From: Microbacteriaceae bacterium
GTDB lineage: Bacteria > Actinomycetota > Actinomycetes > Actinomycetales > Microbacteriaceae
Length of the DNA stretch: 12,641 bases
Direction of reading: 5' to 3'
Assembly (NCBI GenBank): GCA_026785785.1
Contig: JAJAZI010000137.1
Coordinates: 1-12,641, forward strand
The translations under genes and the position numbers were made by a program. How positions within the stretch are numbered: the first letter of the stretch is position 1; every line of letters starts with the position of its first letter. The notes beneath the pieces are model-generated. The model was not told where the DNA came from, did not search any database, and saw only the letters and a list, made by a program, of their open reading frames with translations. Below are positions 519 through 4,368 of this stretch, one piece after another.

Positions 519-1541
519 ATGACAAACCCCGCGCGCACCCGCTGCCCCCTCGCCCGCCGCATCCGCCCTCGCATCCGTCCGCTGATCGGCCTGGCCGCAG
601 CGGGCCTTCTCGCCCTCACCGGCTGTTCCGCGACGTCGGCTGGGGCCGAGAACGAGACCGCTCCCGCCGAGGCGGTAATCGACAACTGCGGTACCGAGGT
701 CGACACGACGGCCGCCCCCGAGCGCATCGTGACTATCAAGTCGACGTCTACTGAACTGCTCATCGCGCTGGGGCTCGCCGACCGCGTGGTCGGATCTGCC
801 TTCCAGGACGGCCCCGTGCCGGAGGAGTGGGCCTCGGCCGCGGCAGACATACCCGTCATCTCCGATTTCGCACCGAACCAGGAGGCCGTTCTCGAGCTCG
901 AGCCCGACTTCGTCTTCGCGGGCTGGGAGTCGATGCTCACCGCGGAGGCCGCCGGCGACCGCGAATCGCTCGCCGGGCTTGGCGTCGGCAGCTACGTGGC
1001 ACCGTCCGCGTGCAAGGAGGCCGACTACCAGCCCGAGAAGCTCACCTTCGACGGGGTCTTCGCCGACATCGCCGAAGCCGGCCGGGTGTTCCACGCGGAG
1101 GAGGCGGCCGCCGACTTGGTCGCCGATCAGCGCGCGGCCCTCGAAGCGATCGGGTCCGACGACCGGGGCCTGAGCGCGCTCTGGTATTCCTCAGGCACCG
1201 ACACACCCTATGTCGGCGCCGGCATCGGGGCACCGCAGATGATGATGGAGCGCCTCGGACTGACGAACATCGCCGCCGATGTCGCCGACACGTGGAGCCC
1301 GCTGGGCTGGGAGGCCGTCATCGACGCCGACCCCGACGTGATCGTGCTCGTGGATGCCTCGTGGAACACGGCCGCGAGCAAGATCGAGCTGCTCGAGTCG
1401 AATCCCGCCACGGCCGCCCTCGGCGCGGTGCAGTCCTCGCGCTACCTGGTGGTCCCGTTCGCGGCGGGTGAGGCGGGTGTGCGCAACGTGTCGGCCACGG
1501 CGGATCTCGCGCAGCAGCTGGCGGCCGTCGATGTCGAGTAG
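519..1541 (+). CDS. Putative F420-0 ABC transporter substrate-binding lipoprotein
   Basis: A 340-residue solute-binding protein that would be anchored outside the membrane and deliver its ligand to the permease/ATPase encoded next. The N-terminus is arginine-rich, followed by a hydrophobic segment and the lipobox LTGC with the acylated cysteine at residue 36. The body is of the FecB/BtuF type: PERIVTIKSTSTELLIALGL near residue 70 and a repeated alpha/beta lobe layout. It matches, from memory, the actinobacterial family named proposed F420-0 periplasmic binding protein (TIGR03868), including the stretches YSSGTDTPYVGAGIGAPQMM and LVDASWNTA. Two further cysteines (57 and 165) could form a disulfide. 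The ATG at 519 is chosen because it gives a proper lipoprotein signal and has GAGAG five bases upstream. An in-frame GTG at 375 would add 48 residues encoded by leader stems. The ligand is inferred; FO is an alternative. Confidence 0.85.
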   Translation: MTNPARTRCPLARRIRPRIRPLIGLAAAGLLALTGCSATSAGAENETAPAEAVIDNCGTEVDTTAAPERIVTIKSTSTELLIALGLADRVVGSAFQDGPVPEEWASAAADIPVISDFAPNQEAVLELEPDFVFAGWESMLTAEAAGDRESLAGLGVGSYVAPSACKEADYQPEKLTFDGVFADIAEAGRVFHAEEAAADLVADQRAALEAIGSDDRGLSALWYSSGTDTPYVGAGIGAPQMMMERLGLTNIAADVADTWSPLGWEAVIDADPDVIVLVDASWNTAASKIELLESNPATAALGAVQSSRYLVVPFAAGEAGVRNVSATADLAQQLAAVDVE

Positions 1542-1547
1542 CTGAGC

Positions 1548-2567: not shown

Positions 2568-3379
2568 TTCCGGATGCCGGACGGGGCGACTCGATGAGCG
2601 CGCGGCAACTCTCGGTCGTACTCGGCGGCCGCGCTGTCGTCGACGCCGTCGACGCCGAACTGCTCGGGGGAAGGGTGACCGCGATCCTCGGTCCGAACGG
2701 CGCGGGCAAGTCGAGCCTCATCCGGGTGCTGGCGGGAGTCGACCGGCCGGCATCCGGTGCACTCAGCTGGGCGGGAGAGGACTGGTTCGCCACGAGCAGG
2801 CGGGAGCGTGCGCGGGTCGCGGCACTCGTCGAGCAGGACGTCAGTGCCGAGCTGCCGCTGACCGTGCGCATGGCGGTTGCCCTCGGCCGCACCCCGCACT
2901 CCTCCTTCCTCGCAGGGCCGTCGCGACGCGACAACGAGGTCATCGACGCCGCGATGGCGGATGCCGGCGTGACCGAATTCGCGCACCGCCAGATCAGCAC
3001 GCTGTCGGGCGGCGAACGCCAACGCGCGCATCTCGCGCGGGCCCTCGCCCAGGAACCGAGGCTGCTGCTGCTCGACGAGCCGACCAACCACCTCGACGTG
3101 CTCGCGCAGCTCACGACCCTGGCGCTGGTTCGCGATCTGGCCACGAGGAACGGGATCGCGGTCGTGGCGGCGCTGCACGATCTGAACCTCGCGGTCACGT
3201 TCGCCGACCACGTCGTGGTGCTCGACGCCGGCCGCGTGCGCGCATCCGGCCCGCCCGCCGAGGTGCTCACCCCCGAACTCATCCTCCGCGTGTGGCACGT
3301 GGCGGCGACGGTGCTCACCCGCCCGGTGACCGGCGCGCCCGTGATCACCTTCGACCTTCCCGAGAGGACCCACCCATGA
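2564..3379 (+). CDS. Putative F420-0 ABC transporter ATP-binding protein
   Basis: A 271-residue ABC ATPase that would power the importer from the cytoplasmic side. Visible motifs are Walker A GPNGAGKSS (residues 43-51, Lys49), the signature LSGGERQRA (from 147), Walker B LLLLDEP (Asp171, Glu172) followed by a TNHLDV D-loop, and the switch histidine in ALHD (His205). The GTG at 2564 overlaps the permease stop by 4 bp (GTGA) and has a strong GGAGG at 2554-2558, five bases upstream, so I prefer it. An ATG at 2594 would give 261 residues. The gene ends by overlapping cofD by 4 bp (ATGA). The family is the ATPase of the F420-0 cassette (TIGR03873 as I recall), related to FecE/BtuD-type proteins. 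Confidence 0.88.
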   Translation: MIPDAGRGDSMSARQLSVVLGGRAVVDAVDAELLGGRVTAILGPNGAGKSSLIRVLAGVDRPASGALSWAGEDWFATSRRERARVAALVEQDVSAELPLTVRMAVALGRTPHSSFLAGPSRRDNEVIDAAMADAGVTEFAHRQISTLSGGERQRAHLARALAQEPRLLLLDEPTNHLDVLAQLTTLALVRDLATRNGIAVVAALHDLNLAVTFADHVVVLDAGRVRASGPPAEVLTPELILRVWHVAATVLTRPVTGAPVITFDLPERTHP

Positions 3380-4368
3380 CAGCGATCACCGTGCTGGCCG
3401 GAGGCGTCGGCGGCGCCCGATTCACCCGCGGACTCCGCGAGCACCTCGCGGGCACCGACGCGGTCATCACCGTGATCGCCAACACCGGCGACGACATGTG
3501 GCTCACGGGGCTGCGCGTGTGTCCCGACCTCGACTCGATCATGTACACGCTGGGCGGAGCGAATGACGACGTCCGCGGCTGGGGCCGCGTCGGCGAGTCG
3601 GAACGGGTCAGCGCCGAACTCGACGCCTACGGCATCGGCTGGCCCTGGTTCACCCTCGGCGACCTCGACCTCGGAACGCACATCACGAGATCGGCGCTGT
3701 TGCGCGACGGCCTCACCCTCACCGAGGCGACGGAGCGGCTATGCGCCCGCTGGAATCTCGGCGTGCGCCTGCTTCCCGTCACCGACGACGAGGTCGAGAC
3801 GAACGTGGAGATCATCGACCCGACCGACGGTGCCCGCCGCGTCATCCACTTCGAGGAGTGGTGGGTGCGCCATCGCGCCGCCGTTCCCGCCCGGCGATTC
3901 GTGCAGCGCGGGATCGAGCGCGCCCACGCGACGGATGCGGCGGTGGAGGCCATCGGGTCCGCCGACGTCGTGCTCGTCGCGCCCTCCAACCCCGTGGTGT
4001 CGATCGGCACGCTCGTCGCGATCCCGGGCATCGCCGGGGCCCTGGCCGCCACCGCGGCCCCGGTCGTCGGCGTCTCGCCGATCATCGAGGGGCGAGCGGT
4101 GCGCGGCATGGCCGACGCCTGCCTCGCCGCGATCGGCGTGGATGCGACCGCGGGGGCCGTCGCGCGCCACTACGGTTCCCGCCGCTCCGGCGGCCTCCTC
4201 GACGGGTGGCTCGTCGACGAAACGGATACCGCCGCGCTGCCCGGGATCGAGGGCGCGGGCATCCTCGCCGCGGCAGCGCCCCTGTGGATGAACGACCTCC
4301 CGAGCTCGGCGCGGCTGGCCGGCGACGCCCTTCTGCTCGCCAATCGGATCGGCGCACGGATCGCCTGA
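3376..4368 (+). CDS. cofD: 2-phospho-L-lactate / enolpyruvyl transferase CofD (FbiA)
   Basis: Encodes the 330-residue cytoplasmic transferase that moves the phospholactyl or enolpyruvyl-phosphate group from its guanosine-diphosphate carrier onto FO, giving F420-0 or dehydro-F420-0. The length matches mycobacterial FbiA (about 331). Family stretches seen are LAGGVGGARF (residues 7-16), NTGDD (36-40, containing the conserved aspartates), GLRVCPDLDSIMYTLGG, GDLDLGTHI, the FEEWWVR motif, APSNPVVSIGT and SPIIEG. It starts at ATG 3376, overlapping the ATPase stop by 4 bp, with AGAGGA (3363-3368) upstream, so it is co-translated with the transporter. That is direct physical linkage of an uptake system with an F420 biosynthetic step. 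It converges with cofC. Confidence 0.95.
   Translation: MTAITVLAGGVGGARFTRGLREHLAGTDAVITVIANTGDDMWLTGLRVCPDLDSIMYTLGGANDDVRGWGRVGESERVSAELDAYGIGWPWFTLGDLDLGTHITRSALLRDGLTLTEATERLCARWNLGVRLLPVTDDEVETNVEIIDPTDGARRVIHFEEWWVRHRAAVPARRFVQRGIERAHATDAAVEAIGSADVVLVAPSNPVVSIGTLVAIPGIAGALAATAAPVVGVSPIIEGRAVRGMADACLAAIGVDATAGAVARHYGSRRSGGLLDGWLVDETDTAALPGIEGAGILAAAAPLWMNDLPSSARLAGDALLLANRIGARIA

Follow-up and report, generated by a model that had tools for sequence, protein, structure and literature searches.

What does an ATP-binding cassette (ABC) transporter of the kind proposed to import F420-0 carry when it is encoded in one operon with cofD? The question is raised by a contig of 12,641 nt from a Microbacteriaceae bacterium (JAJAZI010000137.1 of assembly GCA_026785785.1; this whole stretch is called the window below), in which the genes of a binding protein, a permease, an ATPase and CofD form one head-to-tail operon at 519-4368. 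The F420-0 ABC transporter cassette (TIGR03868/TIGR03869/TIGR03873) was reportedly proposed by Selengut and Haft in 2010, and the proposal is said to be based on gene neighbourhoods, mostly of genomes that keep only cofE. We consider it probable that in this organism the cassette imports FO, the head group of F420, and replaces FO synthase, and most likely the operon is a variant of that transporter, for which the substrate is to be revised. Window proteins, ten of which were scanned, were scored against NCBIfam models with curated cut-offs, and the genes that bear on the question are the following.

519..1541, + strand: substrate-binding lipoprotein (TIGR03868, 456.8 bits against a cut-off of 392.4)
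1548..2567, + strand: FecCD/BtuC-type permease (TIGR03869, 498.6 bits against a cut-off of 437.35)
2594..3379, + strand: ABC ATPase (best match TIGR03873, 335.8 bits, below the cut-off of 372.4)
3376..4368, + strand: cofD, for the enzyme by which a phospho-acid group is transferred to FO (CofD model, 333.7 bits against a cut-off of 257.45)
4378..5028, - strand: cofC (CofC model, 136.4 bits against a cut-off of 105)
9585..10352, - strand: cofE, 255 residues (TIGR01916, 229.3 bits against a cut-off of 180.65)
10353..11354, - strand: oxidoreductase of the luciferase-like monooxygenase (LLM) class, probably F420-dependent (TIGR03557, 271.5 bits against a cut-off of 210.4)

The binding protein gene runs from ATG 519 to a stop at 1539-1541, the permease gene from GTG 1548 to 2565-2567 and the ATPase gene from a likely ATG at 2594, placed by inspection, to 3377-3379; the ATGA common to the ATPase gene and cofD, which starts at ATG 3376, makes an overlap of 4 bp, and cofC is convergent with cofD with 9 bp between them. 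An earlier note on this DNA had described the cassette and cofD as one operon with this overlap, in a locus with cofC and cofE and with no FO synthase in the window. Sequence and model scores confirm the operon, cofC and cofE are both above their cut-offs, and no FO synthase is found among the ten proteins scanned. A cassette followed by cofD and cofC was found also in Cellulomonas, Demequina and Actinotalea lenta, in several cases with cofE; since the same gene order recurs in other genera, the arrangement of the operon is not due to chance.

The operon is like the proposed cassette in that it is actinobacterial, has a binding protein and a permease above their cut-offs and has cofE and the gene of a probably F420-dependent oxidoreductase in its vicinity, and these last two, both above their cut-offs, indicate a host that uses F420. 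It is unlike the proposed cassette in that the host is not devoid of F420 synthesis except for cofE: cofC and cofD are present, cofD lies in the transporter operon itself, no FbiC is found, and the substrate that we argue for is FO. Because the ATPase scores below the TIGR03873 cut-off, which is a score limit for naming and not a biological feature, the binding protein and permease are counted as members of the cassette, and the operon is classed as a variant of it. In the parts of the literature accessible to our search, no publication was found that appears to test the substrate of this transporter, and the exact phrase 'F420-0 ABC transporter' did not occur.

In the host, CofC, CofD and CofE, the enzymes that convert FO to F420, all score above cut-off. 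According to the accessible text of PMC8498797, CofD consumes FO and CofE consumes F420-0; with cofC and cofD present and no FO synthase, FO would be needed from outside. The earlier note had reasoned that the cassette would import FO if the genome lacked fbiC, cofG and cofH, and neither CofH nor CofG gives a match at E 0.001 in the host genome, whose assembly (2.40 Mb in 384 contigs, the window being contig C137) is 82% complete. Because this assembly is incomplete, the relatives carry more weight: four congeners with the cassette (G083, a single contig, G143, G238 and G278; 93-99% complete) have no CofH match, CofG not being sought there. A further congener of the same genus g1, G193, has FbiC in broken frames and no cassette. 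In its locus (L049) FbiC, CofE and the F420-dependent oxidoreductase are each split over several frames, by decay or sequencing error.

To place the host among its relatives, 279 genomes of the family Microbacteriaceae, at least 80% complete, were searched with TIGR03868, TIGR03551, TIGR01819 and TIGR01916. FbiC, the FO synthase formed by fusion of CofG and CofH, was counted as a CofH match of at least 140 bits, which kept 63 of 67 matches at E <=0.001 (G041, G069 and G132 were weak, and G173 was a fragment of 46.6 bits). For cofE, 12 weak matches were dropped from 166 at E <=0.001 and 154 kept; all 125 cofD matches were kept, 123 of them above cut-off (G193 is partial and G009 split). The cassette was above cut-off in 79 genomes and was judged by hand in seven more: G218, G116, G170 and G260 at 322-330 bits, G049 with a split match, and two at contig ends, G022 (split over two contigs) and G214 (ATPase at the contig end). 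Totals were thus 86 genomes with the cassette, 63 with FbiC, 125 with cofD and 154 with cofE.

Among the 125 genomes with cofD, 57 have the cassette and 62 have FbiC, none has both and six have neither (Fisher p 4e-29, a value that ignores kinship). FbiC is absent from all 86 cassette genomes, and the only genome with FbiC and no cofD (G256) has 6% contamination. The cassette also tracks cofE, which is present in 85 of the 86; the exception, G214, is an assembly 82% complete, and no other genome without cofE has the cassette. When cofE occurs without cofD, 29 of 30 genomes have the cassette. Seven genera (g1, g22, g38, g53, g76, g82 and g84) include both cassette species and FbiC species. On a tree of CofE from 145 genomes there are 14 changes of state for the cassette and 18 for FbiC; three contrasts stand on well-supported branches, and of these an average of 2.8 show cassette and FbiC changing in opposite ways and none shows them changing in the same way. 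The FO-import reading that the earlier note had made conditional on a missing FO synthase is supported by this table, with FbiC in 0 of 57 cassette genomes that have cofD, and the comparison across the family that it had suggested favours the same reading, as a rule that is not absolute. A more distant binding-protein subfamily, with TIGR03868 scores of 199-233 bits, was also seen (for example G171, G117, G261, G050, G033 and G107), and no CofE match was found in these six genomes.

Retention of cofC and cofD in cassette genomes is joint. CofC was searched in 80 genomes: it is found at 80 bits or more in all 44 examined of the 57 cassette genomes with cofD, and none of the 29 cassette genomes without cofD has a CofC match above 28 bits; all 29 keep cofE. 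Ratios of nonsynonymous to synonymous substitution rates (dN/dS) between the host and G083 are 0.13 for cofD, 0.11 for cofC and 0.10 for cofE, and relative to this congener the host cofD and cofC appear to be under constraint like that of cofE. Against the more distant G238 and G278 the ratios are 0.20 and 0.22 for cofD and 0.18 and 0.26 for cofE.

In part of the genomes, the transporter and FbiC trade places in one neighbourhood. The cassette and cofD stand together in 49 of 56 cassette loci with cofD, the cassette lying 5' of cofD on the same strand, or else 3' of cofD or of the cofD/cofC pair; in loci without cofD it is mostly near the cofE block. Of the 63 genomes with FbiC, 61 were examined around cofE, and FbiC lies inside the fetched cofE locus in 25 of these, on the strand of cofD in 21 of 21 loci that hold both, with gaps of 118 to 2873 bp. 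FbiC and the cassette are alike in supplying FO to CofD, for the cassette presumptively, and in their type of locus, and unlike in that one is an enzyme and the other a transporter.

FbiC itself has two forms in the family, 17 of 63 being above the CofH cut-off and 46 below it. The canonical form has the CofH motif CYTGCRFC in 17 of 17 genomes and both CxxxCxxC motifs in 16 of 17 (the exception, G054, is truncated by the end of its contig). The low-scoring form was read in 13 loci, 11 of the 46 in the family (L145, L152, L153, L162, L165, L167, L178, L189, L190, L197 and L139) together with L281 and L282, the broken and truncated L049 being left out of the motif counts. All 13 have the CofG motif only, and the loop of the CofH cluster is missing. 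In the two proteins scored, the CofG domain exceeds the TIGR03550 cut-off of 213.35 (476.4 bits in L165, 465.9 in L282) and the CofH domain falls below the TIGR03551 cut-off of 374.1 (357.2 and 313.1). With CofH below cut-off and the second CxxxCxxC absent in 13 of 13, this form is not filed as FO synthase; a two-radical-SAM (S-adenosylmethionine) mechanism is called universal in the organisms studied (PMC8498797, accessible text). A gene for a Baeyer-Villiger-type flavoprotein monooxygenase follows it 3' on the same strand, overlapping or at most 701 bp away, in 12 of 13 loci, and adjoins it on the same strand in the thirteenth by the open reading frame (ORF) list; no such gene is present in 14 canonical FbiC loci. 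In the family the low-scoring form and the cassette are mutually exclusive, just as canonical FbiC and the cassette are, which suggests that this form makes FO, and FbiC without the CofH cluster plus the monooxygenase is a possible alternative FO synthase. We found no description of such an FbiC in the parts of the literature accessible to the search.

Beyond the family, 228 genomes of the order were drawn, with the cassette counted only above cut-off (which excluded G539 with 376.5 bits and G520 with 352.8) and FbiC again as a CofH match of at least 140 bits (48 of 71 kept). Here 53 have the cassette, 10 of them belonging to the same family as the family draw, 48 have FbiC and one has both; of the 92 with cofD, 32 have the cassette, 47 FbiC, one both and 14 neither. 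A further set of 49 named cassette genomes, including 11 Microbacteriaceae, was searched, starting from 50 loci among the best 80 of 527 relatives; cofD is above cut-off in 44, and one CofH match of 21 bits (G309) was dropped. Ten of the 49 also have an FbiC-like gene (CofH at least 221 bits): five Promicromonospora, two Myceligenerans, Cellulomonas RIT-PI-Y, Sanguibacter inulinus and, as the only one of the ten inside Microbacteriaceae, Agromyces mediolanus JCM 3346. The seven Promicromonospora and Myceligenerans genomes have no F420 gene within 6 kb either side of the cassette, and the Sanguibacter inulinus contig is too short to judge its surroundings.

These ten genomes, together with G507 in the order draw, weigh against replacement of FO synthase by the cassette as a general rule, and a strict rule that the cassette never occurs with FbiC is rejected. 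Since some genomes have both, the cassette can coexist with FO synthesis; in Cellulomonas RIT-PI-Y it is even joined to cofD in the presence of FbiC. Several further points count against FO import as we read it. The six genomes of the family and 14 of the order with cofD but neither cassette nor FbiC mean that some genomes have another FO source. Only three independent contrasts stand on well-supported branches of the CofE tree, too few for a corrected p-value. FbiC lies outside the fetched locus in 36 of 61 genomes, so the exchange of places is partial. The host cofC changes fast relative to G238 and G278 (dN/dS 0.40 and 0.49). The low-scoring form accounts for 45 of the 62 FbiC genomes with cofD, and if it makes no FO, the exclusion table weakens; what counts against FO production by this form is the named set, where the match is low-scoring in at least 8 of the 10 genomes with cassette and FbiC (two were read, both without the cluster). 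Finally, FO diffuses through membranes unaided, and an importer is not strictly required (PMC8498797, accessible text); the gain from an importer would then be capture at low concentration. On the side of FO import, the accessible text of PMC11917521 gives 1.2-2.6 uM for FO in culture supernatants of other actinobacteria, namely Streptomyces, Mycobacterium and Rhodococcus.

The six family genomes with neither source (G016, G249, G053, G149, G159 and G027; L041, L042, L044, L045, L046 and L047) all have cofC, cofD and cofE. No shared transporter was found beside their cofD when ten proteins from five loci were scanned and the sixth locus was covered by its ORF list: an alpha-amylase is common to two congeneric genomes, the other proteins seen (an aldo/keto reductase, a major facilitator superfamily protein and a peptide ABC system) are not shared, and the idea of another FO transporter at these loci was rejected. 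CofE and CofC of the small genome G027 are apparently fused in one frame of 462 residues (L047:7814-9202, + strand). Two cofE-like genes, both above the CofE cut-off, are present per F420 locus in L060, L062 and L064 (G266, G275 and G139).

What the 29 cassettes without cofC and cofD carry separates the explanations that compete within deazaflavin import. F420-0 import, as first proposed for such genomes, fits these branches of the transporter family and may still hold for them. On a tree of binding protein plus permease (84 rows) they are nested among the rows with cofD. The cofD state shows 8 changes there, of which 7 are required by branches with good support, and 11 changes on a tree of 83 permeases alone. 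We infer that absence here means loss, and the order of events likewise. One form of deazaflavin import, to which we give an appreciable but clearly minor share provided that a deazaflavin is imported at all, is a single broad importer that takes FO and F420-0 alike, with cofC and cofD lost by chance where F420-0 is plentiful and specificity left as it was. The nesting agrees with it, as does the invariance of most pocket candidates in both groups. Residue differences in 84 binding proteins (56 with cofD and 28 without; G022 and G214 were left out, and counts are not corrected for kinship) point the other way. Residue 280 is Ala in 56 of 56 proteins with cofD, and Ser in 17 of 28 without and 0 of 56 with it; the site changes 7 times on the permease tree. 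Suggestive changes in the same direction are those of Tyr223 to Phe or Trp (Tyr in 53 of 56 with cofD against 13 of 28 without) and of Ser287 to Lys (Lys in 18 of 28 without cofD against at most 3 of 56 with it). In four contrasts of residue changes with cofD state on well-supported branches, site 280 has none against. Sign tests on the trees were rejected, as 3-4 contrasts on well-supported branches are too few for p < 0.05, and the contrasts serve as description only.

The binding protein has a lipobox Cys36, read from the sequence, and its predicted model has a mean predicted local distance difference test (pLDDT) score of 90.2. Across 38 binding proteins, four Trp and some other residues do not vary; in the model they come after core strands, and they would sit where this fold binds its ligand; residue 280 likewise follows a core strand, as judged by secondary structure rather than coordinates. 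On this placement, the extra Ser and Lys would suit a ligand that bears phosphate, and the residue differences between proteins with and without cofD are suggestive of changed specificity. The closest solved structure, with 49% identity, the same motifs and a TM-score of 0.93 (by target length), is PDB 4mlz, a periplasmic binding protein of Jonesia denitrificans for which the title of the entry names no function; it carries F223, S280, S283 and K287, residues frequent in members without cofD.

That all members import F420-0 (or short F420), with CofC and CofD kept to re-phosphorylate FO released inside or diffused in, we regard as unlikely. In its favour, the 29 of 86 cassette genomes with cofE but neither cofC nor cofD need F420-0, FO is membrane-permeant, as said above, and would need no carrier, and 4mlz comes from Jonesia denitrificans, which we take to be among the organisms with cofE only on which the model was founded. 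However, supplied F420-0 would make FbiC, cofC and cofD all dispensable, yet FbiC alone is missing throughout (86 of 86), and cofD is kept in 57 genomes (with cofC in the 44 examined), adjoining the transporter in 49 of 56. Moreover, the host cofD looks constrained by its dN/dS, and residue 280 separates many members without cofD from all members with it.

That the ligand is no deazaflavin, and the cassette a heme, siderophore or cobalamin importer beside F420 genes, is very improbable, for although the fold family includes heme, siderophore and B12 binding proteins, the names of TIGR03868, TIGR03869 and TIGR03873 are themselves marked putative and seven of the ten named genomes that also have FbiC show no F420 gene in the 6 kb around the cassette, as mentioned above, the cassette tracks cofE (85 of 86), excludes FbiC in the family draw and scores 27 bits with the BtuF model against a cut-off of 234, and no Rfam riboswitch was found in the window (up to E 5) or at 8 other loci (gathering scores). 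The operon shares transporter architecture and fold with the type II importers BtuCDF and HmuTUV, but scores below the cut-offs of those families (BtuC 232.3 of 334 and 244.4 of 461) and has no cobalamin riboswitch that we could find. Such a riboswitch upstream is usual, not obligatory, for B12 importers. One had been suggested by eye in the leader at 410-518 and was rejected, there being no such Rfam match up to E 5; folding of this leader is no better than that of shuffles (z 0.46), and its inverted repeats are weak.

Other features of the locus may be noted. CofE does not extend over the second half of the CofE fusion model (449 positions). For the oxidoreductase, the score with TIGR03885 (flavin mononucleotide type; 296.5 bits) exceeds that with TIGR03557 but is below the former model's own cut-off of 398.7. 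Between cofC and cofE, at 4992-9496, lies a block of genes that we take to be transglutaminase-like, DUF58-like and MoxR-like. The block is found again at many loci with the cassette and at several with canonical FbiC, and we know of no link between it and F420. The single-contig congener G083 has a divergent ribosomal RNA (rRNA) operon with 16S and 23S genes immediately upstream of its cassette (L080:1-4378); window positions 1-350 are probably the leader of such an operon, and the contig probably ends at the rRNA repeat.

Returning to FO import, we propose that the cassette would be a type II ABC importer for deazaflavins, by which the host would take up FO released by other actinobacteria; ligand and inward direction are both inferred. 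CofC and CofD would turn the imported FO into (dehydro-)F420-0, to which CofE would then add glutamate, and the shared operon of transporter and cofD would favour trapping of uncharged FO as a charged product. In branches without cofC and cofD the imported compound would be F420-0, or both it and FO, and CofE alone would finish the cofactor. For the order as a whole, a broader picture is offered tentatively, as somewhat less probable than its contrary: FO supply may be an exchangeable module that feeds CofC, CofD and CofE and consists of canonical FbiC, of cluster-less FbiC with the Baeyer-Villiger-type monooxygenase or of an FO importer, FO being a vitamin shared between producers and consumers; importers may repeatedly drop cofC and cofD and import F420-0 through a retuned pocket.

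FO import predicts that cassettes with cofD bind FO and that their hosts are FO auxotrophs. The repeated absence of cofC and cofD would give natural pairs for mapping how the pocket discriminates FO from F420-0. Should the reading hold, 57 of the 125 family genomes with cofD would belong to organisms that scavenge the precursor of a redox cofactor which its users were supposed to synthesise themselves, FO released by Streptomyces and others would be a public good, and FO would be a vitamin-like nutrient passed between bacteria.

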